From positions 310,001 to 374,000 of the forward strand of contig NZ_SOEO01000002.1 in the NCBI RefSeq assembly GCF_004365655.1: 64,000 nucleotides of DNA, read 5' to 3'. The notes beneath the pieces were generated by a model. That model saw nothing but the letters and a program-made list of their open reading frames with translations, was not told the origin of the DNA and searched no databases. This DNA comes from Epilithonimonas xixisoli (GTDB lineage: Bacteria; Bacteroidota; Bacteroidia; Flavobacteriales; Weeksellaceae). The translations under genes and the position numbers were made by a program. Shown here piece by piece: positions 1 through 28,717 of this stretch. Position 1 is the stretch's first letter, and the number at the start of each line of letters is the position of its first letter.

Positions 1-121
1 GATGACAGCAATCTGGGTAGTTTCGCCTATAGTTTTGGTTTTTCACCTTTTATTAACGCCCATTTTGTGGTTCAAAAGAAAGAAACAAAGAGAATATTTA
101 CAAGGAATTAATTTAAAATAA
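1..121 (+). CDS. darA: Partial C-terminus, probable DarA (dialkylresorcinol condensing enzyme)
   Basis: The window opens inside a reading frame (first full codon at base 2) that ends with TAA at 119-121, two bases before the next start. The visible 39 residues contain one hydrophobic stretch followed by a basic tail (WFKRKK), as in a membrane-anchored C-terminus. The identity is inferred from position: in flexirubin clusters darA normally lies directly upstream of the DarB-type ketosynthase, which is the next gene. DarA condenses two beta-keto acyl units into the dialkylresorcinol ring. The visible residues alone do not prove the family. Confidence 0.5.
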   Translation, partial: MTAIWVVSPIVLVFHLLLTPILWFKRKKQREYLQGINLK

Positions 122-123
122 AA

Positions 124-1263
124 ATGAGTAACGTTTATATCACCAAATCTTCTACATATCTGCCAAACGAGCCGGTTTCTAATGACGAAATGGAAACACA
201 TCTTGGTTTGGTCAACAATACACCTTCCAAAGCAAGAGCTTTGATTTTGAGAAACAATCAAATCAAAACAAGATATTACGCTTTGGACAAAAACGGACAG
301 CCAACGCACACCAATGCTCAAATTACAGCAGCGGCAATCAATGGCCTTTTTGATGAGAATTTCAAAAAAGAAGATATGGAACTTTTGTCTTGCGGAACCA
401 CTTCTGCTGACCAAATTCAGCCTTCGCACGCCTCAATGGTTCACGGCGAGTTGAACATTGGAAAATCTGTAGAAATCAATACGTCTATGGGACTTTGCAA
501 CTCTGGAATGAACGCTTTGAACTATGGATTTCTATCCGTAAAAGCTGGCGTTAAAGACAATGCCGTTTGCGTAGGTTCGGAAAGATTCTCTTCCTGGATG
601 ACGGCGGACAAATTTGACCACGAGGCAGAAAACCTCAAGCTTTTGGAAGAAAAACCCATCATCGCTTTCAAAAGAGATTTCCTAAGATGGATGTTGTCTG
701 ATGGCGCTGGTGCATTTTTATTGGAAAATAAACCAAGAGAAAATGAAACATCTCTAAGAATCGAATGGATTGATTTCTATTCTTATGCGCACCAAATCGA
801 AGCTTGTATGTATTCAGGTTGCGAAAAACAGGAAGACGGAAGCCTCAAATCTTGGGCAGATTATCCTTCTGACGAATGGTTGAAACAATCGATTTTTGCT
901 TTGAAACAAGACACGAAAATCCTTGACAAATATATTTTGGTAAAAGGTGCAGAAAGTTTGAGAACATCTTTTGACAAACATCAGTTGGACCCAGAAACTG
1001 TGGACCACGTTTTGGCGCACATTTCTTCTGGTTACTTCAAAGACGGATTGAAAGAGGAATTTGCCAATGTAGGATTGGATTTTCCTTGGGAAAAATGGTT
1101 CTACAATCTTTCCGAAGTGGGGAACATCGGCGCTGGTTCTATCTTCATCGCTGTTGAGCAATTGATGAATTCTGGGAAATTGAAGAAAGGTGAAAAAATC
1201 CTTCTTTGCGTTCCAGAAAGTGGAAGATTCGCGTATTCTTGTGCCTTATTGACGGTTTGCTAA
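124..1263 (+). CDS. darB: DarB-like beta-ketoacyl-ACP synthase III
   Basis: A 379-residue thiolase-fold ketosynthase of the FabH/DarB class. The triad is readable: Cys125 in GLCNSG, His299 in LAHISS and Asn334 in GNIGAGS. The Asn in place of a second His is typical of the KAS III branch. Known DarB enzymes make the beta-keto acyl precursor that DarA condenses into the dialkylresorcinol half of flexirubin. The gene follows the probable darA end by two bases and overlaps the next gene (TAATG), so the genes are probably co-transcribed and translationally coupled. Length is normal for the family. The class is secure from the triad; the DarB assignment rests on cluster context. Confidence 0.85.
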   Translation: MSNVYITKSSTYLPNEPVSNDEMETHLGLVNNTPSKARALILRNNQIKTRYYALDKNGQPTHTNAQITAAAINGLFDENFKKEDMELLSCGTTSADQIQPSHASMVHGELNIGKSVEINTSMGLCNSGMNALNYGFLSVKAGVKDNAVCVGSERFSSWMTADKFDHEAENLKLLEEKPIIAFKRDFLRWMLSDGAGAFLLENKPRENETSLRIEWIDFYSYAHQIEACMYSGCEKQEDGSLKSWADYPSDEWLKQSIFALKQDTKILDKYILVKGAESLRTSFDKHQLDPETVDHVLAHISSGYFKDGLKEEFANVGLDFPWEKWFYNLSEVGNIGAGSIFIAVEQLMNSGKLKKGEKILLCVPESGRFAYSCALLTVC

Positions 1264-1694
1264 TGGAAAGCAACTTACCAAACTCCGACAAAGATTTTGT
1301 AGAAAGTCTGATTCCACAGAGATTTCCATTCGTAATGGTTGATGAAGTTTCCGACTATTCCGAGAATCTGGTTGTTTCAAGATTTACAATTAAAGAAGAT
1401 AATATTTTTGTGAGCGAAGGCATTTTCCAAGCTTCCGGTTTGATTGAACATCAGGCTCAGACGGTAGCTTTGCATACAGGTTATAAATATTTTCTCTTGG
1501 GTAAGGAATCTCCGACAGGTTACATAGGCGCAATAAAATCTGTTGAAGTTGAAACCTTACCAAAAGTAGGCGACCAACTGATTTCTGAAGCGACAATCCT
1601 GAACGAAATGATGGGCGTAACTCTAGTTGAAATCGTTACGAAAATCAATGAAACCGTGATTGCAAAATCGCAGATGAAAACCGTTGTGAAATAA
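1263..1694 (+). CDS. FabZ/FabA-like hot-dog 3-hydroxyacyl-ACP dehydratase, catalytic His replaced by Gln
   Basis: A 143-residue hot-dog protein. The start at 1263 is preferred over a longer frame from 1206 because it overlaps the previous stop as TAATG. FabZ enzymes carry a catalytic His in a LPHRYPF-type motif; here the matching motif is IPQRFPFVM with Gln19, while the Glu of the second motif (LIEHQAQ, Glu62) is kept. In aryl polyene clusters the dehydratases ApeI and ApeP are known to act as a hetero-complex. This subunit may therefore supply half an active site beside the next gene product, which has the His. A codon change by sequencing error is possible but not indicated. Confidence 0.82.
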   Translation: MESNLPNSDKDFVESLIPQRFPFVMVDEVSDYSENLVVSRFTIKEDNIFVSEGIFQASGLIEHQAQTVALHTGYKYFLLGKESPTGYIGAIKSVEVETLPKVGDQLISEATILNEMMGVTLVEIVTKINETVIAKSQMKTVVK

Positions 1695-1738: not shown

Positions 1739-2179
1739 ATGGAACTGAAGGCCGAGAACTTAATCAACATCCACAATTTTCTTCCCCATCGCAAACCAAT
1801 GCTGATGGCGGATTACATTTTGGAGTTGACGCCTGAAACCGTCATCACTTCTTTTGAAATCAAGCCTGATAATATTTTTGTTTTGAATAATGAATTGGTT
1901 GAAGCTGGATTGATAGAAAATGTGGCGCAAACGTGTTCATCGATTCTTGGACAAAGTTTTTTCAAAGGTGCGGATGTGGAAACCAAAGTCATCGGTTTCA
2001 TTACCAATATCAAAAAAATAGAAATTTTTGCGTTGCCAAAAGTTGGTGATAATATCATTTCCAAAGCTTCTCTGATTTCTCAATATGAGAACATTTGCAA
2101 CATTTTCTGCGAGACTTTTATTAATGATAAATTACTCATCCGAGCAGAAATCAATTTGTTTATTCAAGAAATTAAATAA
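1739..2179 (+). CDS. FabZ/FabA-like hot-dog 3-hydroxyacyl-ACP dehydratase
   Basis: A 146-residue hot-dog dehydratase with the FabZ dyad in place: His17 in FLPHRKPML and Glu60 in LIENVAQ. It would remove water from the 3-hydroxyacyl-ACP in each round of polyene chain building, giving the conjugated double bonds. It lies 44 bases after a sister gene whose motif has Gln instead of His, which suggests an ApeI/ApeP-like pair. The stop overlaps the next start (TAATG). Confidence 0.85.
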   Translation: MELKAENLINIHNFLPHRKPMLMADYILELTPETVITSFEIKPDNIFVLNNELVEAGLIENVAQTCSSILGQSFFKGADVETKVIGFITNIKKIEIFALPKVGDNIISKASLISQYENICNIFCETFINDKLLIRAEINLFIQEIK

Positions 2180-2583
2180 TGAAAAAACAAGACATTCCAC
2201 AAGACGAAAGTAATCTTCAATCAGCAAATATGACCGAAATGTTATACGTGACTGATGAAAATAACAATTACACCACCGCTCAAAGTATCGGCTGGGAAGC
2301 TAAAAAAGCAGCCCTTGACGAATCGATGGAACTCATTTATGAGAGAATTGAAGAAGCTAAGCAAAACGTCGCCAACAACATCGTGAGCCCAATCATCTAT
2401 TTTATGGAGTTGAATAAAATGGATTTGCAGGTTCTTGCGGCTTATGTTGACAAATGGCAATGGACCGTAAAACGACATTCAAAACCACACGTTTTCAAAA
2501 AACTAAGCGATTCTACTTTGAAAAAATATGCCGACGCCTTCGGAATTTCAGTAGATGAATTGAAAAATTTTGACGGGAAATAA
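2179..2583 (+). CDS. Cluster-linked protein with XRE-like helix-turn-helix C-terminus, unknown function
   Basis: A 134-residue acidic protein that I do not recognise as a characterised family. The first 50 residues are polar and probably disordered. The C-terminal 60 residues resemble a Cro/XRE-type fold: a helix containing MDLQVLAAYV, then a polar turn (KRHSKPHVFKKL) and a closing segment, KYADAFGISVDELKNF, typical of the last helix of HTH_3 domains. It is coupled to the dehydratase by TAATG overlap and followed by a hairpin terminator, so it ends the first transcript of the cluster. It could be a local regulator or a structural partner. Confidence 0.6.
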   Translation: MKKQDIPQDESNLQSANMTEMLYVTDENNNYTTAQSIGWEAKKAALDESMELIYERIEEAKQNVANNIVSPIIYFMELNKMDLQVLAAYVDKWQWTVKRHSKPHVFKKLSDSTLKKYADAFGISVDELKNFDGK

Positions 2584-2593
2584 TGAAATAAAT

Positions 2594-2628
2594 AACCCCT
2601 TCAGCGTTTTGAACTCTGAAGGGGTTTT
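2594..2628 (+). terminator. Hairpin terminator
   Basis: An 11-bp perfect stem (aaccccttcag / ctgaaggggtt) with an 11-base loop runs into a short T run at 2625-2628. It separates the small HTH-like gene from the BtrH-type gene and argues that the latter starts at 2642, after the hairpin. Confidence 0.75.
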
Positions 2629-2641
2629 AAAGAAACAACGA

Positions 2642-3637
2642 ATGAAAATAAATTTTGAACACCATCAGACAGCGCATTGCGAAAACGGTGTTGCTTCCAA
2701 TCTACTTCTCAACAAAGGTTTGAAACTCAGCGAGCCAATGATTTTCGGAATCGGTTCCGGATTATTTTTCGTGTATTTGCCTTTCTTAAAAGTGAATTTT
2801 GCGCCAGGTTTTAGTTATCGTCCAATGCCAGGTTCGATATTCACCAAAGCGGCAAAACGATTGGGAATTAAAATCAAAAGACAAAAGTTCTCAAATCCAG
2901 ACGAAGCTCAAAAGGCATTGGAGAAAAATTTAGAACAAAATATCCCAACTGGTTTACAGGTTGGTGTTTTCAACTTGACTTATTTTCCTGAAGAATATAA
3001 ATTCCATTTCAACGCCCACAATCTTGTGGTTTACGGAAAAGAAGATGGTAAATTCCTCATCAGCGACCCTGTAATGGATTTTGCAACCACGTTGACCGAA
3101 GCTGAACTTGAGAAAGTTCGTTACGCAAAAGGTGCACTCGCTCCAAAAGGTCATATGTATTTCCCAACACACATTCCGGAAAATGTACATTTGGAAGAAG
3201 CCATCAAAAAAGGAATTAAAGACACCTGCAAAAATATGCTCGCGCCAGTTCCATTAATTGGTGTAAAAGCAATGCGTTGGGTGGCGAAAAGCATCCCGAA
3301 ATGGGCTGAGAAAAAAGGTACCAAAGTCACCAATCATTATCTTGGACAACTCATCAGAATGCAGGAAGAAATCGGTACTGGTGGTGGCGGATTCAGATTT
3401 ATTTACGGTGCTTTTTTACAGGAGGCGTCTGTTATTCTTAAAAATGACGAGTTAAAGGAATTATCCAAAGAAATTACCGCAATCGGTGACCTTTGGAGAG
3501 ATTTTGCCGTGGATATTGCAAGAGTTTACAAAAACAGAAACTCGAAAAGCGATATTTACAATCAGCTTTCAAAGTCGATGTTGCATATTGCTGATTTGGA
3601 AGAGGCTTTTTATAAGAAACTGAGGAAGGCGATTTAA
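2642..3637 (+). CDS. BtrH N-terminal domain (papain-fold acyltransferase-like) protein
   Basis: A 331-residue protein whose N-terminal half matches the BtrH_N family. Cys13 in AHCENG lies in the nucleophile position. The segment HNLVVYG (His126) followed by FLISDP (Asp142) resembles the His/Asp part of a C39-like papain fold. BtrH itself transfers an acyl chain from a carrier protein to an aminoglycoside in butirosin synthesis. In this cluster an equivalent step would be moving the aryl polyene from its ACP onto the dialkylresorcinol hydroxyl, forming the flexirubin ester. That role is inference. The start at 2642 avoids coding through the terminator. Confidence 0.8.
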   Translation: MKINFEHHQTAHCENGVASNLLLNKGLKLSEPMIFGIGSGLFFVYLPFLKVNFAPGFSYRPMPGSIFTKAAKRLGIKIKRQKFSNPDEAQKALEKNLEQNIPTGLQVGVFNLTYFPEEYKFHFNAHNLVVYGKEDGKFLISDPVMDFATTLTEAELEKVRYAKGALAPKGHMYFPTHIPENVHLEEAIKKGIKDTCKNMLAPVPLIGVKAMRWVAKSIPKWAEKKGTKVTNHYLGQLIRMQEEIGTGGGGFRFIYGAFLQEASVILKNDELKELSKEITAIGDLWRDFAVDIARVYKNRNSKSDIYNQLSKSMLHIADLEEAFYKKLRKAI

Positions 3638-3686: not shown

Positions 3687-3896
3687 ATGACAACATTCAG
3701 TTTCAAAATAGATTCCAGCGAGAGTAAAAAAATCAAAGCTATTCTCAAAGCTCTGGGGGTAACCGAATTGAAAATCAAAGAAGAAGAAATTCCTTCTAAA
3801 AAGTTTGCTGAAAAGGTAGACAGAGCCAGAAAGGAATATTCTGAAGGAAAAACGGTTGATGTAAATACAAAAAATATATGGGAAGGTATCAAATAG
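3687..3896 (+). CDS. Antitoxin partner of YoeB-type toxin
   Basis: A 69-residue, lysine- and glutamate-rich protein directly upstream of, and overlapping by 19 bases, a Txe/YoeB-type toxin. The N-terminal beta-strand (TTFSFKIDSSE) and a following helix resemble small flavobacterial antitoxins. The C-terminal part is probably the disordered toxin-binding tail. Together the two genes form a self-contained module unrelated to pigment synthesis. Confidence 0.75.
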   Translation: MTTFSFKIDSSESKKIKAILKALGVTELKIKEEEIPSKKFAEKVDRARKEYSEGKTVDVNTKNIWEGIK

Positions 3897-4159
3897 TCCG
3901 CACCAGGGAAGCGGAAAAAGACCTTGCTAAAATTTTAAAATCAGGTAATAAATCTGACATCAAAAAAGTGGAAATTTTCTTCACCGAAATCGAAGAACAT
4001 CCCAGAACCGGCACAGGATTACCAGAGCAATTAAAATACTTTGAAGGAGAAATCTGGAGCAGAAGGATTAATAAAAAAGACAGATTTGTTTATGAAATTT
4101 ATGAAGAAGATAAAAATGTCATTGTAGTGAGTTCCTTGGGACATTACAGCGACAACTAA
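3878..4159 (+). CDS. Txe/YoeB family mRNA endonuclease toxin
   Basis: A 93-residue RelE-superfamily toxin. The YoeB signature is clear: HPRTGTGLPEQLK with Glu50, WSRRINKKDRFVYEI with the paired Arg62-Arg63, and a C-terminal GHY (His89-Tyr90) matching the catalytic Glu, Arg and His of YoeB. Such toxins cut ribosome-bound mRNA until neutralised by the antitoxin. The gene overlaps its antitoxin gene and lies between the BtrH-type gene and the ABC exporter of the flexirubin cluster. Confidence 0.88.
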   Translation: MGRYQIVRTREAEKDLAKILKSGNKSDIKKVEIFFTEIEEHPRTGTGLPEQLKYFEGEIWSRRINKKDRFVYEIYEEDKNVIVVSSLGHYSDN

Positions 4160-4204: not shown

Positions 4205-4960
4205 ATGTCAAATCCCATCATCGAAATAAAAAGCCTCTACAAGAAATACAAAAACTCGGAAGACTTTTCGGTTAATGATATTTCTTTCAATATTGATAAA
4301 AACGAAATCTACGGAATTCTCGGTCCAAACGGAGCGGGAAAAACCACGCTAATTTCTATGCTTTCAGGTTTGATTAAACCAACTTCAGGAAGTTTTACCA
4401 TCAACGGTTTGTCGCCGAAAAAAGACAATTCAAAAATCAAACAAATTATCGGCGTTGTTCCTCAGGAATATGCGCTCTACCCAACTTTGACGGCGAAAGA
4501 AAATCTTTTGTTCTTCGGAAGTCTGTATGGTTTGAAAAACGATTATCTTCACAAAGCAATCGATGAAGCTTTAGAATTAATGGGTTTAACGAAATTTGCC
4601 AACAAAAAAGTGGACCAGTTTTCAGGCGGAATGAAACGCCGTTGCAACCTAATTGCCGGAACACTTCACAACCCGAAAGTTCTGTTTCTGGACGAGCCAA
4701 CGGTCGGCGTTGATGTTCAATCCAAAAAAGCCATAATCGATTATCTTTTAGATTTAAATAAAAAAGGAACGTGCATTATTTATACCTCGCATCACCTTTC
4801 TGAGGCTGAGGAATTCTGTACAAAAATCGCCATCATCGACCACGGAAAAATCCACGCGACGGGAACACCGCAGGAACTGGTTGAAAGAGTCGCCAATGCC
4901 GAAAACCTTGAGGATGTTTTCATTTCATTAACCGGAAAAGAATTGAGAGATGTTGTATAA
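4205..4960 (+). CDS. ABC transporter ATP-binding protein of the pigment cluster
   Basis: A 251-residue ATPase with Walker A GPNGAGKTT (residues 40-48), the ABC signature SGGMK (140-144) and a Walker B ending LFLDEPT. It overlaps the permease gene by 11 bases, so the two make one exporter of the ABC-2 type. Flexirubin clusters usually carry such a pair, presumably to move the pigment or its precursor to the outer membrane. The substrate is inferred from context. Confidence 0.88.
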   Translation: MSNPIIEIKSLYKKYKNSEDFSVNDISFNIDKNEIYGILGPNGAGKTTLISMLSGLIKPTSGSFTINGLSPKKDNSKIKQIIGVVPQEYALYPTLTAKENLLFFGSLYGLKNDYLHKAIDEALELMGLTKFANKKVDQFSGGMKRRCNLIAGTLHNPKVLFLDEPTVGVDVQSKKAIIDYLLDLNKKGTCIIYTSHHLSEAEEFCTKIAIIDHGKIHATGTPQELVERVANAENLEDVFISLTGKELRDVV

Positions 4961-6212
4961 ATTGTGGAGAAGTTTCATCAAGGAAATTCAGTTATTAAAG
5001 CGGGATTCAGGCGGAATTGTCATCATTTTCCTGATGCCGTTGCTGTTGATTATTACGATTACTTTAATTCAGGATTCGACATTCAAAAATCTGGAGGGTT
5101 CAAAAATTCCGATTATTTTTATTGATAACGACAAGTCTGAAGTTTCCAAAGTCATCAAAAAAGAACTGGAAACCAGCAAAACATTTGAACTCGTCACCGA
5201 TTACAACGAAAAATCAGCCGAGAAAGCCGTATTTACAGGAGATTATCAAATGGCCATCGTCATTCCGGAAAATCTGACGAAAGATTTAAATTCAAATATC
5301 GATTCCAAAGTTCAGACCGTTGTAAGTTCGTTTGGTTTGGAAATCGACTCTACGGCGACAAAAGCTGTAGCTTCAAAAACGAAAGACATTCACCTCTATT
5401 TCGACCCCGCCACCAACGCTGGTTTCAAAAATTCTGTGATGAATGCCATCAACAAAATGGTTTTCGAAATCGAGAATAAAAAAATCTACAAAGCCTTCCA
5501 GGACCAATTGGGAACGACGGAAGACCTTGAAAATAAAAGCCTGATTACCTTCAAAGAAATCACACCAAACAAAGGCAACGAAGAAGTAATGCCAAATTCC
5601 GTACAACATAATGTTCCTGCCTGGGCGCTGTTTGCGATTTTCTTTATTGTGGTGCCGTTGTCGATTAATTTAGTCAAAGAAAAAAGTCAGGGAACGAGCG
5701 TGAGAGTTCGCGTGAGCCCGACGCCATATTACATTCATATTTTAGGAAAAACATTCACCTATCTCATTATTTGCGTTATCCAGTTTTTGCTGATGGTTGC
5801 AGTAGGAATCTGGCTTTTCCCGCTGATGGATTTGCCACAATTTGACGTTACCGGAAAAATGCTTCACCTTCTGATTGTCACTTTATTTGCAGGTTTGGCA
5901 GCGATTGGATTTGGCGTTTTAATCGGCACCGTTTCCGACACTCAGGAACAGTCGGCGCCGTTTGGAGCGACTTCTGTTGTGGTTTTGGCAGCGATTGGCG
6001 GAATTTGGGTTCCGGTTTTCCTGATGCCAGAATTTATGCAGAAAATCGCACAGTTTTCCCCGATGAACTGGGGACTGAATGCGTATTACGATATTATTTT
6101 AAGAAACAGTGGCATTGGCGAAATTGCCAAGGAACTGATTTTCTTATTTTTATTTTATATTGCGATGGTAACCATCTCTTTACTATACGAAAGAAAACAA
6201 AATGCAGTCTAA
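4950..6212 (+). CDS. ABC-2 type transporter permease
   Basis: A 420-residue membrane protein with one N-terminal membrane segment (about residues 22-41), a large periplasmic loop rich in Lys, Asp and Ser, and a C-terminal block of about five membrane segments (from about residue 225). This is the ABC2_membrane_3 layout. It is translationally overlapped with the ATPase before it and with the thioesterase after it. It should form the pore of the pigment-cluster exporter. Confidence 0.85.
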   Translation: MLYKLWRSFIKEIQLLKRDSGGIVIIFLMPLLLIITITLIQDSTFKNLEGSKIPIIFIDNDKSEVSKVIKKELETSKTFELVTDYNEKSAEKAVFTGDYQMAIVIPENLTKDLNSNIDSKVQTVVSSFGLEIDSTATKAVASKTKDIHLYFDPATNAGFKNSVMNAINKMVFEIENKKIYKAFQDQLGTTEDLENKSLITFKEITPNKGNEEVMPNSVQHNVPAWALFAIFFIVVPLSINLVKEKSQGTSVRVRVSPTPYYIHILGKTFTYLIICVIQFLLMVAVGIWLFPLMDLPQFDVTGKMLHLLIVTLFAGLAAIGFGVLIGTVSDTQEQSAPFGATSVVVLAAIGGIWVPVFLMPEFMQKIAQFSPMNWGLNAYYDIILRNSGIGEIAKELIFLFLFYIAMVTISLLYERKQNAV

Positions 6213-6621
6213 AAAATTAACTTGTACCGAAAAAGTACGCGTCCGTTTCAACGAGACAGACCCACTGGGAATCGTCTGGCACGGGCATTACATCGTGTAT
6301 TTTGAGGACGGAAGAGAGTCTTTCGGAAGACAGCACGGTTTGACTTATCTCGACATTCAGAAAGCTGGATTTACCACGCCGATTGTAAAAAGCACGTGTG
6401 AACATTTTCTGCCTTTAAAATATGGTGAAACTTTCAATATTGTAACGACTTTTGTGAATTCTGTTTCAGCGAAATTGATTTATAAATATGAGATTTTCAA
6501 CCAAAATAATCAATTGGTTTGCAGAGGAGAAACCATTCAGGTTTTTCTGGATTCTGAAAATAATTTATGCCTCTACAATCCCGAGTTTTTTCAGGCTTGG
6601 AAAGATAAAATGGGATTTTAG
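6202..6621 (+). CDS. YbgC-type acyl-CoA/acyl-ACP thioesterase (4HBT hot-dog)
   Basis: A 139-residue hot-dog thioesterase with the YbgC/4HBT signature: NETDPLGIVWHGHYIVYFEDGRE, giving Asp20 and His27 as the catalytic pair. It overlaps the permease gene by 11 bases. In flexirubin and aryl polyene clusters, thioesterases of this type may release or proofread acyl intermediates. The exact substrate cannot be read from the sequence. Confidence 0.85.
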   Translation: MQSKKLTCTEKVRVRFNETDPLGIVWHGHYIVYFEDGRESFGRQHGLTYLDIQKAGFTTPIVKSTCEHFLPLKYGETFNIVTTFVNSVSAKLIYKYEIFNQNNQLVCRGETIQVFLDSENNLCLYNPEFFQAWKDKMGF

Positions 6622-6922: not shown

Positions 6923-8071
6923 ATGAACAAAGAAATTTACATTACAGATTACAACTGCATCACACCATTGGGTTTTGATGTGGAATCAAACTGGAAAGCA
7001 CTTCTGGAAGGAAAATCTGGCGTTGCTTTACATAAAGTTATTGATAATCACGAAGCTTTTTTTGTTTCTAAAATTGATTCTGAGAAATTGGAAGAAGAAT
7101 TCAATAAACTCTTCGACTCCGCTCAGAGTGACAATCAAAATTTCACAAGACTTGAAAAAATGTTTTTATTAAGTCTAAAACCTTTAGTAGAAAGACATCA
7201 GATTTCAGATGAAACGGCTTTTATTCTTTCTACAACCAAAGGAAACATCAGCTTATTAAAAAACGAAAACACTTTACCGGACGGCGTTTATCTTTCAAAC
7301 TTAGCTCAAAAACTGGCTGATTTTTTTGGATTTAAAACCAAACCGATTGTCGTTTCAAACGCTTGTGTTTCGGGAGTGATGGCAATTTCTGTGGCTAAAA
7401 ATATGATTTTGGCAGGACAATATAAAGATGCTTTTGTGGTCGCCGGAGATGAGATTTCTGAATTTGTAATTTCAGGTTTCAATTCTTTCCAGGCGATTGG
7501 AAGCGAACCTTGCAAACCTTACGACAAAAATCGTAACGGCATTAATCTGGGTGAAGCAACGGCTGCGGCATACATCACTTCTACTCCATCAGCGAACGAA
7601 AAATTTAAGTTTAAAATTTTAGGTGACTCTGCAATCAACGATGCCAATCACATTTCCGGACCATCGAGAACCGGCGATGGATTGTTTATGAGCGTTCAAA
7701 ATGCAATGAAAGAAGCGAAAGTTTCTTCAGAACAAATCGATTTTATTTCCGCTCACGGAACAGCAACGCTTTACAACGACGAAATGGAAGCCATCGCTTT
7801 CAACCGAATGGATTTGCAAAATGTTCCGCTGAACAGTATGAAAGGTTATTACGGACATTGCCTTGGAGCTTCAGGGCTTTTGGAAAGCATTATTTCTATG
7901 GAATCTACTTTGAACAGTACTTTAATTCCGTCTAAAAACTTTGAAGAAATGGGTGTTTCGAAAGATTTGAATATTATTAAGAAAAATCAATCCGCAGAAG
8001 TCAAATATATTTTGAAAACAGCTTCTGGTTTTGGAGGGTGTAATGCGGCGATTGTTTTGGAGAAATGTTAA
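6923..8071 (+). CDS. Beta-ketoacyl-ACP synthase (KAS I/II type), pigment cluster
   Basis: A 382-residue condensing enzyme with a complete Cys-His-His triad: Cys148 in SNACVSG, His278 in SAHGTAT and His312 in GHCLGASG. It would extend the polyene chain by two carbons from malonyl-ACP. Residues 62-71 (KLFDSAQSDN) are encoded by a stretch identical to one arm of the REP-like repeat found as a hairpin at 29920-29994. This segment is therefore probably an in-frame insertion in a surface loop before the catalytic core. The gene is followed eight bases later by a short ketosynthase-like gene. Confidence 0.88.
   Translation: MNKEIYITDYNCITPLGFDVESNWKALLEGKSGVALHKVIDNHEAFFVSKIDSEKLEEEFNKLFDSAQSDNQNFTRLEKMFLLSLKPLVERHQISDETAFILSTTKGNISLLKNENTLPDGVYLSNLAQKLADFFGFKTKPIVVSNACVSGVMAISVAKNMILAGQYKDAFVVAGDEISEFVISGFNSFQAIGSEPCKPYDKNRNGINLGEATAAAYITSTPSANEKFKFKILGDSAINDANHISGPSRTGDGLFMSVQNAMKEAKVSSEQIDFISAHGTATLYNDEMEAIAFNRMDLQNVPLNSMKGYYGHCLGASGLLESIISMESTLNSTLIPSKNFEEMGVSKDLNIIKKNQSAEVKYILKTASGFGGCNAAIVLEKC
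7111..7135. repeat. REP-like repeat arm inside a coding sequence
   Basis: The bases cttcgactccgctcag (7111-7126) are identical to the left arm of the hairpin at 29920-29935. Here they are read in frame within the ketosynthase gene, giving FDSAQSD. Confidence 0.75.
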
Positions 8072-8778: not shown

Positions 8779-9036
8779 ATGGAAGATTTAAAATTAGAAT
8801 TAAAAAACAAAATCATCGAAGTTCTTAATCTTGAGGACGTTGCAGTAGAAGAAATCAAAGATACAGACCCACTTTTCGGTGGCGGTCTTGGTTTGGATTC
8901 TATCGACGCGCTGGAGTTAATCGTACTTCTCGATAAAGACTACGGAATCAAATTATCAGACCCGAAAAAAGGAAAAGAAATCTTCCAGTCCATCGAAGTG
9001 ATGGCAAAATACATCGAAGAAAACAGAACAAAATAA
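8779..9036 (+). CDS. Acyl carrier protein of the pigment cluster
   Basis: An 85-residue acidic four-helix carrier protein. The phosphopantetheine attachment site is Ser41 in LGLDSIDAL, with the Asp-Ser pair expected for holo-ACP formation. It sits between ketosynthase genes and would carry the growing polyene. It is distinct from the housekeeping AcpP in its GGGLG run before the site and in its genomic context. Confidence 0.9.
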   Translation: MEDLKLELKNKIIEVLNLEDVAVEEIKDTDPLFGGGLGLDSIDALELIVLLDKDYGIKLSDPKKGKEIFQSIEVMAKYIEENRTK

Positions 9037-9041
9037 ATTAA

Positions 9042-9112
9042 TTTACCAATATAACAATGTAACAGTCTAGCAATAATTGGTAAACTGTTACATTGCTACA
9101 TTGTTACATTTA
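9042..9112. repeat. Inverted repeat element (TAACA/TGTTA palindrome)
   Basis: The gap before the next ketosynthase is almost entirely one imperfect palindrome. caatgtaacagt (9055-9066) pairs with actgttacattg (9084-9095), flanked by ttaccaat / attggtaa within the structure. It resembles other intergenic palindromes in this window and lies upstream of a start codon. Confidence 0.6.
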
Positions 9113-9119
9113 TAAAAAG

Positions 9120-10319
9120 ATGGGTCAAAAAATTGCCATTACAGGAATGGGCATCATTTCCTCCATTGGTAACAATGTCGAGGAAAATTTTATTTCGCTG
9201 ACGACCGGTAAACACGGCATTTCAGACATCGAACTGTTTGAAACACGCCACGCCGGAAGCATCAAAACAGGCGAGATAAAATTGTCTAATGAAGAACTTG
9301 TGCAGAAACTTCAGCTGAATGAAGACAACAACGTCACAAGAACCACTTTGTTGGGAATGGTTGCTGCAAAAGAAGCTGTAGAAAGTGCCGGAATTTCGGA
9401 TATTAACGACTACAAAACCGGACTCATTTCCTCCACAAGCGTGGGCGGAATGGATATTACCGAAAAATATTTCTACACCTACGAAGATTTTCCTGAAAAG
9501 CAAAAATATATTGACTCGCACGATGCCGGAAATTCATCCTTGGCGATTGCAGAATTGTTGGGCCTGAAAGGAATGGTTTCTACCATCAGCACAGCCTGTT
9601 CGTCTGCTGCCAACGCGATTATGATGGGAGCAAAACTCATCAAAAACGGCGTTCTTGACCGTGTGATTGTTGGCGGAACAGATTCGCTTTCAAAGTTTAC
9701 TTTGAATGGATTTAATACGTTGATGATTCTGACGGATTCTTACAACACGCCTTTCGACAACGACAGAAAAGGCCTAAACTTGGGCGAAGCTGCCGCTTAC
9801 CTCGTTTTGGAATCTGACGAAATTGTGAAAAAAGAAAATAAAAAAGTCCTCGCCTATCTTTCAGGTTATGGAAATGCGAATGATGCACATCACCAGACCG
9901 CTTCTTCGGAAAACGGACAAGGTGCATTTTTGGCAATGGAAAAAGCTTTGAAAGTTTCAGGTTTAAATAAAGAAAACATCGATTACATCAACGTTCACGG
10001 TACCGCAACTCCTAATAATGATTTATCTGAAGGCATTGCAATGATTCGGATTTTTGGTGAAAATCAGGTGCCGGAATTCAGTTCTACGAAAGCATTTACG
10101 GGTCACACTTTGGCGGCGGCAGCGGGAATTGAAGCGGTTTATTCGATTTTGGCGATGCAGAACAATGTGATTTTTCCAAATTTAAATTTCAAAAATAAAA
10201 TGGAAGAATTTGATTTGACGCCAGTTACCGAACTGAAAGAAAAAAATATCAACCACGTACTTTCCAATTCATTTGGATTTGGCGGAAACTGTTCAACTTT
10301 AATTTTTTCTAAACAATGA
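9120..10319 (+). CDS. Beta-ketoacyl-ACP synthase (FabF-like), pigment cluster
   Basis: A 399-residue ketosynthase with Cys160 in STACSSA, His293 in VHGTATPNND and His329 in FTGHTLAAAAG, so the full condensing triad is present. The start at 9120 (MGQKIAITGMG) is chosen over an upstream frame from 9093 because the family begins at this point and the upstream codons lie in a repeat. It overlaps the following gene by four bases (ATGA), the arrangement of a ketosynthase and its chain-length factor in type II systems. Confidence 0.9.
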   Translation: MGQKIAITGMGIISSIGNNVEENFISLTTGKHGISDIELFETRHAGSIKTGEIKLSNEELVQKLQLNEDNNVTRTTLLGMVAAKEAVESAGISDINDYKTGLISSTSVGGMDITEKYFYTYEDFPEKQKYIDSHDAGNSSLAIAELLGLKGMVSTISTACSSAANAIMMGAKLIKNGVLDRVIVGGTDSLSKFTLNGFNTLMILTDSYNTPFDNDRKGLNLGEAAAYLVLESDEIVKKENKKVLAYLSGYGNANDAHHQTASSENGQGAFLAMEKALKVSGLNKENIDYINVHGTATPNNDLSEGIAMIRIFGENQVPEFSSTKAFTGHTLAAAAGIEAVYSILAMQNNVIFPNLNFKNKMEEFDLTPVTELKEKNINHVLSNSFGFGGNCSTLIFSKQ

Positions 10320-11380
10320 GTGCAGTTTACATCAACAGTGCCGCCTGCATCTCGGTTCAGGACACTTTAAACGAAAATTTCTCCGATATTTTAAAACCTG
10401 AAAATTCAGTTCAAATTTTAAAAGCCATTGAGCCCAATTACAAAGAATTCATTCCGCCAGCGATGAGCCGAAGAATGTCTAAAACGGTAAAAATGAGCTC
10501 TGTAGCTTCCACAAAAGCTTTACAGGAAGCAGGAATTGAAAAGCCTGACGCCATCATCGTCGGAACCGGAATGGGTTGCTCTCAGGATTCCGAAAAGTTC
10601 CTGAAAAATGTATTGGAAAATAATGAGGAGTTTTTGACGCCAACTTTTTTTATTCAATCCACTCACAACACGGTTTCCGGACAAATTGCCTTGGGATTGC
10701 AATGTCACGGCTATAATTTTACGTACGTCAACAGTTCATCTTCACTCGAATTTTCAATGCTGGATGCAAAACTTCAGATTTTGGATGGTGAAGCAGAAAA
10801 TGTTTTGGTAGGTTCAACAGATGAACAAACTGAAAGAACAATGGAGCTCTATAAATTGAGCAATTCCATTAAAAAAGAAGAAAATCTGCCTGTTGATTAT
10901 TTGAATTCAACAACGGAAGGTGTGATTTGGGGTGAGGGTTCGAGCTTTTTTGTTTTGGGGAAAGATAAAACAGAAAACTCTTACGCTGAACTGAAAGATA
11001 TTCAAATTATAAATTCATTAGAATTAGACGAAACCACAAAATTTATTGAAAATTTTTTAGCTAAAAATAATTTAAAAAATGAAGATATCGATGCTGTTAT
11101 TTTAGGTTTCAGCGGAGATTCAAAGTCGGATGTTTATTATGAGAAGGCTTCAGCATTATTTCAAAATTCGTCATTATTATATTATAAACATTTGAGTGGA
11201 GAATTCAATACAGCAAGTGGTTTTTCAACATTTATGGCTTGTCAGATTTTAAAAAATCAGCAGATTCCCGCGGTGATGAAGATTAATGAAGTTGAAAAAG
11301 AAAGTATCAAAAATATTCTTCTTTACAATCATCTTGGTGGAGTTGACCACAGTACGGTTTTGTTGGAAAATCTAATTTAA
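10316..11380 (+). CDS. Ketosynthase-like chain-length factor (no active Cys)
   Basis: A 354-residue member of the ketosynthase fold. At the nucleophile position it reads YVNSSSSLEF (Ser around 140-141) instead of a Cys motif. The usual HGT motif is degenerate (ILGFSGDSKSD), and only the last His-like motif survives (KHLSGEFNTASG). Its start overlaps the stop of an intact ketosynthase. In type II polyketide and aryl polyene systems such a partner is the chain-length factor, forming a heterodimer that sets product length. The role is inferred from fold, missing Cys and gene coupling. Confidence 0.8.
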   Translation: MSAVYINSAACISVQDTLNENFSDILKPENSVQILKAIEPNYKEFIPPAMSRRMSKTVKMSSVASTKALQEAGIEKPDAIIVGTGMGCSQDSEKFLKNVLENNEEFLTPTFFIQSTHNTVSGQIALGLQCHGYNFTYVNSSSSLEFSMLDAKLQILDGEAENVLVGSTDEQTERTMELYKLSNSIKKEENLPVDYLNSTTEGVIWGEGSSFFVLGKDKTENSYAELKDIQIINSLELDETTKFIENFLAKNNLKNEDIDAVILGFSGDSKSDVYYEKASALFQNSSLLYYKHLSGEFNTASGFSTFMACQILKNQQIPAVMKINEVEKESIKNILLYNHLGGVDHSTVLLENLI

Positions 11381-28198: not shown

Positions 28199-28717
28199 CT
28201 ACTCCTGTTTGTACCAGCTGGAGTATTTAACATAATTATTTGCAATCCTGTCAATCTCGCCTTCAATCAGACTTTGTGAAATATCTTTCACTTTTCTTGC
28301 AGGAACGCCAGCCCAAATTTCGCCTTCTTTGATAATCGTATTCGCTGTTACAACCGCACCAGCTGCAACAATAGAATTGCTTTCCACCACGCAATCATCC
28401 ATCACGATTGCGCCCATTCCTATCAGAACATTGTCTTTAATCGTGCAACCGTGAACAATCGCATTGTGACCAATCGAAACATTATTACCAATCGTGGTCG
28501 GACTTTTTTTGTAAGTGCAATGAATCATCGCATTATCTTGGACATTCACTTTATTCCCCATTTTGATGTAATGTACATCGCCTCTCAAAACCGCGTTGTA
28601 CCAAATGCTACAGTCATCTCCCATCGTCACATCGCCAATGATCACAGCCGTTTCTGCCACAAATGCATTGTCTCCAAACTGTGGTTTTTTCCCTAAAAGT
28701 TCTCTTATAATTGCCAT
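28199..28717 (-). CDS. Gamma carbonic anhydrase family protein
   Basis: A 172-residue left-handed beta-helix protein built from hexapeptide repeats (for example VSIGHNAIVHGCTIKDNVLIGMGAIV). The conserved zinc-site His are present in IHCTYK, IGHNAIVHG. Trimers of this family bind a metal between subunits; some are true carbonic anhydrases, others act on acyl groups. The gene lies 39 bases upstream of the BrkB-family gene on the same strand. Confidence 0.9.
   Translation of the reverse strand: MAIIRELLGKKPQFGDNAFVAETAVIIGDVTMGDDCSIWYNAVLRGDVHYIKMGNKVNVQDNAMIHCTYKKSPTTIGNNVSIGHNAIVHGCTIKDNVLIGMGAIVMDDCVVESNSIVAAGAVVTANTIIKEGEIWAGVPARKVKDISQSLIEGEIDRIANNYVKYSSWYKQE

Follow-up and report, generated by a model that had tools for sequence, protein, structure and literature searches.

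The window analysed here is a 64,000-nucleotide stretch of the Epilithonimonas xixisoli genome, corresponding to positions 310001-374000 of contig 2 (C2) in a 3.39-Mb assembly. Its flexirubin genes comprise only a resorcinol operon, minus most of DarA, and one ketosynthase gene block, and are arranged as follows.

1..121, forward strand: 3′ end of the DarA gene, beside DarB and homologous to a DarB-adjacent protein elsewhere; named by position
124..1263, forward strand: DarB, dialkylresorcinol biosynthesis ketosynthase (NF053539, 635 bits against a cut-off of 550)
1206..1694, forward strand: DH1, a dehydratase by position only; conserved in clusters, no Pfam match, start codon uncertain
1739..2179, forward strand: DH2, a FabZ-like dehydratase (FabZ matches under cut-off)
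2179..2583, forward strand: DarG, 134 aa, directly upstream of darH (NF053545, "flexirubin biosynthesis protein DarG", and NF053536)
2642..3637, forward strand: DarH, with BtrH_N and DUF4872 domains (NF053550)
2678..2680, forward strand: codon of Cys13, the predicted nucleophile of DarH
3017..3019, forward strand: codon of His126, the predicted base
3065..3067, forward strand: codon of Asp142
4205..4960, forward strand: ABC transporter ATPase (Pfam)
4950..6212, forward strand: ABC-2 permease (Pfam)
6202..6621, forward strand: 4HBT thioesterase (Pfam), of a kind that polyene-only clusters also have
6923..8071, forward strand: ketosynthase KS-a (Pfam/NCBIfam)
8779..9036, forward strand: acyl carrier protein (ACP; profile matches), a possible acyl donor for DarH
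9093..10319, forward strand: ketosynthase KS-b (profile matches)
10316..11380, forward strand: chain-length-factor-like ketosynthase (CLF), the final gene of the window's flexirubin block

DarH is a protein of 331 amino acids, read from an ATG at 2642 to a stop codon ending at 3637. A longer reading from a TTG at 2570 is available, and the majority of relatives align from the 2642 start. Pfam BtrH_N (PF14399) matches residues 12-143 (2.6e-50, 170.6 bits against a gathering score of 29.7) and DUF4872 matches residues 155-327 (2.8e-59). The NCBIfam equivalog NF053550 ("BtrH-related acyltransferase DarH"; release 20) scores 509.2 bits against a curated cut-off of 300, across the whole profile (1-325 of 325), and a protein in the genome record of Chryseobacterium luquanense is 100% identical over 331 residues. 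Judged by these matches, DarH is a member of an already named family and not a new protein, and the idea that it is an acyltransferase is likewise not new in outline, as the family name already contains it. The literature searched on DarH/DarG, BtrH, DUF4872 and flexirubin, mostly titles and the beginnings of abstracts, contained no activity, mutant or reaction test of DarH, and the NCBIfam naming may rest on work beyond it. The protein is probably cytoplasmic.

Nearly all of the DarA gene lies upstream of the window (C2:309207-310121, equivalent to L002:17207-18121), and its product has no Pfam or NCBIfam match. A 1218-aa fusion of MMPL and PlsC-type acyltransferase domains (PF01553) ends approximately 0.8 kb upstream of the window. 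Directly 5′ of this fusion gene (L002:12936-13509) are DUF2683-like and RelE-like genes, both scoring under Pfam cut-offs; these two genes possibly form a second toxin-antitoxin pair, bordering this cluster. A second locus, some 640 kb distant (C2:953-970 kb), encodes a TAL-type enzyme, a KR, the polyene ketosynthase (KS), a second ACP and an AMP-ligase, together with a lipid-A-type acyltransferase (PF03279) and an AAT-type lipoprotein (PF03417). The flexirubin genes are split between C2:305-322 kb and this locus; in G210, a genome of the same family, both blocks lie together. The original prediction that the cluster makes both halves of a flexirubin consequently applies to the genome but not to the window. 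Its companion statement, that no obvious ester-forming enzyme is visible, is borne out for the subset of window ORFs that was scanned, the one exception being a hexapeptide-repeat transferase at 28199-28717, well away from the cluster, but does not extend beyond the window, where the three acyltransferase-type genes described above are found. The ACP and ketosynthases that it placed near darH are indeed encoded downstream.

Gene order around darH was compared across the best 80 of at least 576 loci carrying a named DarH. Upstream, the first recognised gene is DarG at all 80; downstream, the next one within 1.5 kb is the ABC ATPase at 77, and DarA and DarB each lie within the fetched stretch at 78, so that darG-darH-ABC ATPase is the tightest gene unit. 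The interval between darH and the ABC ATPase gene, for which these 80 relatives have a median of 8 bp, is occupied in the window by a toxin-antitoxin-like pair, namely a 69-aa ORF (3687-3896, forward strand) and a YoeB-like toxin gene (3878-4159, forward strand); locus L158 has a gap of comparable size (562 bp). The darG-darH spacer contains a strong hairpin followed by U residues (2594-2626, forward strand; MFE -19.8, z -4.6), a possible attenuator or processing site. At 24 of the 80 named loci this spacer is at least 35 bases long, and 10 of these 24 fold at -12 or lower, some through different sequences.

A dar locus of Azoarcus was described in 2014, and that report lists darA, darB, darD, darE ("BtrH-like peptidase"), an ABC ATPase, a PHD/PilT pair, a permease, an ACP and a KS (PMC3949708). 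The order darA-darB-darD-darE-ABC ATPase-permease-ACP-KS parallels DarA-DarB-DarG-DarH-ABC ATPase-permease-ACP-KS in the window, and darE is the apparent counterpart of DarH, judged by order and name rather than by sequence. The labels darG and darH in the Azoarcus table belong to the PHD/PilT pair and not to the NCBIfam families DarG and DarH (PMC3949708). Compared with Azoarcus and with the DarH family, the window differs in the toxin-antitoxin-like insert that separates darH from the ABC gene and in the division of the cluster over two loci. The Azoarcus dar locus also has a PHD/PilT pair inside (PMC3949708).

The original prediction assigned to the protein a BtrH-type papain fold with a Cys13/His126/Asp142 arrangement, and these assignments agree with the domain matches and with the alignments. 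All three residues are invariant in 17 of 17 DarH sequences, and likewise in all 12 rows when eight DarH sequences are aligned with four distant paralogues (24-28% identity). In a nine-row MAFFT alignment that includes Acinetobacter and Streptomyces relatives, Cys13 and His126 are invariant (9/9) and the Asp142 column is not. A second lineage of BtrH_N and DUF4872 proteins (L026, L027, L028, L029), 24-28% identical to DarH and with the triad kept, is present in some Bacteroidota. Further relatives are found on Acinetobacter plasmids, one of them beside a TetR gene and two genes annotated as PaaI thioesterases, and on Streptomyces plasmids. In an AlphaFold2 model of DarH built from the 12-row alignment (pLDDT 89.1, pTM 0.88), Cys13 is the first residue of a helix (13-24), His126 is the first residue of a strand (126-134) and Asp142 directly follows a strand (137-141). 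A Cys at the start of a helix, a His at the start of a strand and an Asp right after a strand are the usual placement in papain-type enzymes.

Searching solved structures with the DarH sequence by itself gave no match, a search with the DarH alignment gave weak matches to AziU3 and to C39 peptidases (E about 0.5) amid coiled-coil and other chance hits, and searches with two distant DarH relatives gave chance hits only. Relatives of solved structure were therefore identified by fold. Structural alignment of the model with VIA-align gave full-length matches to CtaG of closthioamide biosynthesis, the best of them (Z 24.4, rmsd 3.4, 293 residues aligned), AziU3 of azinomycin biosynthesis (Z 23.6, rmsd 4.3, 305 aligned) and CcbD (Z 21.9, rmsd 4.3, 301 aligned), which with LmbD belongs to the lincosamide condensing enzymes. 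Sequence identities to DarH are about 12% for CtaG, 16% for AziU3 and about 13% for CcbD. DarH is on this basis predicted to have a papain-type core and a helical C-terminal domain, matching these three structures over its full length.

CcbD accepts fatty acyl groups and works by a ping-pong reaction in which a catalytic Cys takes the substrate over from a carrier protein (PMC12945683). It has a Cys-His-Glu triad and an amide product (PMC12945683), whereas in DarH the acidic residue is Asp and the product would be a phenol ester. CtaG has been proposed to move a 4-hydroxybenzoyl group from its carrier protein CtaH (PMC6772006); this aryl acyl group somewhat resembles the hydroxyphenyl terminus of the flexirubin polyene. 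BtrH of butirosin biosynthesis, which shares the Pfam N-terminal domain with DarH and is likened to it by that domain, not by alignment, is described as an acyl carrier protein:aminoglycoside acyltransferase, the acceptor being the aminoglycoside (PMC10318531). The deposited CtaG variants C11A, H128A and D144N imply a His-to-Asp step of 16, the same as between residues 126 and 142 of DarH. An invariant Arg286, Lys297 and Arg299 lie on one DarH helix, and the carrier-binding arginines of CcbD might, at a guess from terminal ranges only, fall near it. Because CcbD and CtaG form amides and AziU3 is not known to be an acyltransferase, the fold alone is no proof of acyl transfer.

Papain-type folds also carry out hydrolysis, and the Acinetobacter plasmid relative mentioned above adjoins its two annotated PaaI thioesterase genes, so DarH could instead be conceived as a thioesterase, hydrolase or proofreader that frees carrier-bound acyl chains for or after resorcinol synthesis. 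This appears very unlikely: the nearest full-length folds include carrier-dependent condensing enzymes at Z 24-22, whereas the best peptidase-domain match, of C39 type, reaches Z 14.0 (rmsd 2.2, 133 residues aligned), far below CtaG, AziU3 and CcbD. Furthermore, heterologous expression of the C. pinensis genes darB and darA is reported to yield the resorcinol found in flexirubin (PMC3992019). The Azoarcus DAR enzymes are similarly reported to have yielded DAR on heterologous expression (PMC3949708, section 18).

AziU3 was solved together with its partner AziU2, and by analogy DarG was considered as an AziU2-like partner of DarH. This idea was set aside, as the DarG model (pLDDT 85.7, pTM 0.66) instead matched repressor-type helix-turn-helix (HTH) domains, mostly over residues 64-134, and AziU2 was absent among the matches listed, although it may lie beyond them. 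The best of these matches has Z 9.0 (rmsd 3.5, 86 residues aligned), a size that helical models can reach by chance; the best Foldseek E against structures was 0.005, and 12 of 23 DarG sequences touched Pfam HTH_26 at E up to 1 (best 0.0024, sub-threshold). The C-terminal half of DarG is thus predicted to have a lambda-repressor-like (XRE) HTH fold, and the protein could be either a regulator or a protein partner. A bolder reading is that DarH, as a BtrH-fold enzyme making phenol esters, forms a two-part enzyme with DarG, which would have become an HTH-fold partner or substrate-handing subunit rather than a DNA-binding regulator, the pair being kept even away from darA-darB; as a whole this is doubtful, and a role of DarG in the joining step, if it has one, is something we infer only.

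The distribution of DarH was examined in a phylum sample of 296 Bacteroidota genomes and in two families, f4 (157 genomes, picked since it holds DarH genomes) and f11 (81 genomes, picked since one genome, G238, was already known to be without DarH), with all counts taken without correction for relatedness. In the phylum sample, DarH exceeds its cut-off in 23 genomes and DarB in 22, and all 22 DarB genomes have DarH (Fisher p = 2.5e-32, which ignores relatedness). The 23rd DarH genome, G017, has a DarA-like gene next to a DarB that scores 518.7 bits against the cut-off of 550. Weaker DarB-like proteins without DarH are present in G238 (499 bits), G280 (405) and G254 (380). For the proteins of G238 and G254, as for an additional DarB-like copy in G182, BLAST recognised no DarA alongside, and they were not counted as DAR operons, in an inspection that left out the G280 protein and a fragment in G219. 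Plasmid-borne DarB-like proteins of Phocaeicola, Prevotella and Pseudoalteromonas were likewise rejected as DAR producers, with no DarA or BtrH gene listed nearby in the incomplete PLSDB tables. The polyene ketosynthase (E <= 1e-80) is found in 23 of the 296 genomes, 22 of which have DarH; the exception, G238, contains a polyene cluster, with no DarA, DarG or DarH recognised. Conversely, G099 has DarH and its polyene ketosynthase is missed at 1e-80, yet TAL, KR, KS and CLF genes are present. Two genomes (G458, 182 bits; G158, 152 bits) have only a distant DarH paralogue.

In f4, DarH exceeds the cut-off in 46 genomes and occurs as a fragment in one more (G401, a partial DarH at a contig end, counted as positive), and DarB (E <= 1e-90) in 48, 47 of which have DarH, one as this fragment. 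The remaining genome, G410, lacks a polyene-type TAL; its assembly consists of 650 contigs at 83% completeness. In about 17 of the 47, darH and darB are on different contigs or more than 100 kb apart as read from coordinates, a count that excludes G401 and G507, which have 590-790 contigs, as well as G484, where the two genes are about 31 kb apart, and that draft assemblies may inflate, although G017, G382, G459, G474 and G490 have only about 6-20 contigs. The polyene ketosynthase is present in 43 of the 157 genomes, 40 of them with DarH; the other three, which have neither DarH nor DarB, are G464 and G521 (TAL present) and G477 (69% complete, no TAL). In f11, 17 of the 81 genomes have the polyene ketosynthase, and none of these 17 has DarH or a DarB over the cut-off; the same DarH profile that matched in the phylum sample and f4 gave no match there. 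DarH therefore tracks with the resorcinol genes rather than with those for the polyene, and it occurs, with the exceptions given, together with DarA/DarB and aryl-polyene genes.

A polyene-type TAL was found in every DarH genome tested for one: 15 of 15 in a first set (seven by BLAST identity of at least 56%, eight through an additional lyase gene no more than 25 kb from darH) and 11 of 11 in a second set (55-62% identity; G099 and G253 are common to both). Among the genomes tested are six of the seven f4 genomes that have DarH without the polyene ketosynthase (G441 left out). G429 and G509 have DarH with no KS or CLF beside the operon. The TAL counts speak against the suggestion that DarH attaches a non-polyene group to the resorcinol, or acts on a different acceptor, ahead of export through the ABC transporter of the adjacent genes. 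The tight darG-darH-ABC ATPase unit can be cited in its favour; we know of no such intermediate, and consider this extremely unlikely. The sampled genomes include no sound genome with resorcinol genes and without polyene genes, the closest being the incomplete G410, and so a requirement for DarH only where both halves are made is inseparable from DarH simply going with the resorcinol.

Gene content was further compared between 10 DAR-positive and 14 polyene-only gene sets, which are stretches rather than whole genomes, some of the DAR sets being incomplete, so that a gene absent from a stretch may lie outside it. DarA, DarG and DarH are each present in 10 of 10 DAR sets and 0 of 14 polyene-only sets, the DAR sets having been chosen as DarH-positive, which fixes the count for DarH but not those for DarA, DarG and the permease. 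Two of the polyene-only sets (G464, G521) were chosen as DarH-negative, and the remaining 12 belong to the 17 f11 genomes identified solely through the polyene ketosynthase. DarB is present in 10/10 DAR versus 1/14 polyene-only sets, the ABC permease and a 158-aa protein each in 9/10 versus 0/14, DH2 in 3/10 versus 0/14 and the ABC ATPase in 9/10 versus 3/14. KS-a, KS-b and CLF are all present in only 6 of the 14 polyene-only stretches, and TAL in only 3, and some f11 hits may therefore be other kinds of cluster. As far as profile matches go, DarH is the sole recognisable acyltransferase besides the ketosynthase DarB among the genes confined, or nearly so, to DAR sets. The 158-aa protein has no Pfam match, and, as with DarA, this leaves the elimination of other candidates incomplete.

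The ester might otherwise be formed by another acyltransferase or ligase, with DarH serving the resorcinol branch in some other way. Enzymes suited to this are encoded in the genome, namely the PF01553 domain of the MMPL fusion and the PF03279 and PF03417 proteins of the distant polyene locus, and FlxW, "a ligase-like enzyme", has been proposed for the joining of polyene and resorcinol (PMC3992019). Homologues of the three acyltransferases, however, are present in 8 (MMPL-PlsC), 6 (lipid-A-type) and 2 (AAT) of the 14 polyene-only stretches, which have neither DarA nor DarH. Of the 10 DAR sets only 4, 4 and 3 contain them, and the three enzymes are hence not tied to the resorcinol. They are weaker candidates than DarH, being found in polyene-only clusters too, and no gene matching FlxW could be identified in this genome analysis; an explanation of this kind is unlikely.

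Since DarA and DarB are reported to give the resorcinol, this half seems not to need DarH, and since polyene clusters without DarH exist, the polyene seems not to need it either. Among known steps, the joining of the two halves or what follows it would then be left for DarH, an argument by elimination and not a proof. The proposal that DarH forms the ester bond, made in the original prediction, is thus supported by the fold, by the conservation of the triad and its place in the secondary structure, by the presence of DarH with resorcinol genes and its absence from polyene-only sets, and by the reported sufficiency of DarA and DarB, and DarH is the best available candidate for joining the flexirubin halves. 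It is probably a carrier-protein-dependent acyltransferase of the BtrH/CcbD/CtaG type that esterifies the polyene with the resorcinol. In this reaction, an acyl carrier protein would carry the finished aryl-polyenoyl chain in thioester linkage, and the aryl-polyenoyl group would be transferred from there to Cys13 of DarH. One phenolic hydroxyl of the dialkylresorcinol that DarA and DarB produce, presumably activated by His126 and Asp142, would then attack the acyl-enzyme, and the flexirubin ester would leave.

Flexirubins are orange marker pigments of the Bacteroidota, and in the literature found the enzyme that joins their two halves has so far been only a proposal (PMC3992019). The comparison of clusters with and without resorcinol genes provides a short, testable list of genes for this step. 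If the role suggested for DarH is correct, the joining step of flexirubin biosynthesis would be settled, a fold known for amide formation would be extended to phenol esters, and a tool for hybrid polyene-phenol lipids would become available.
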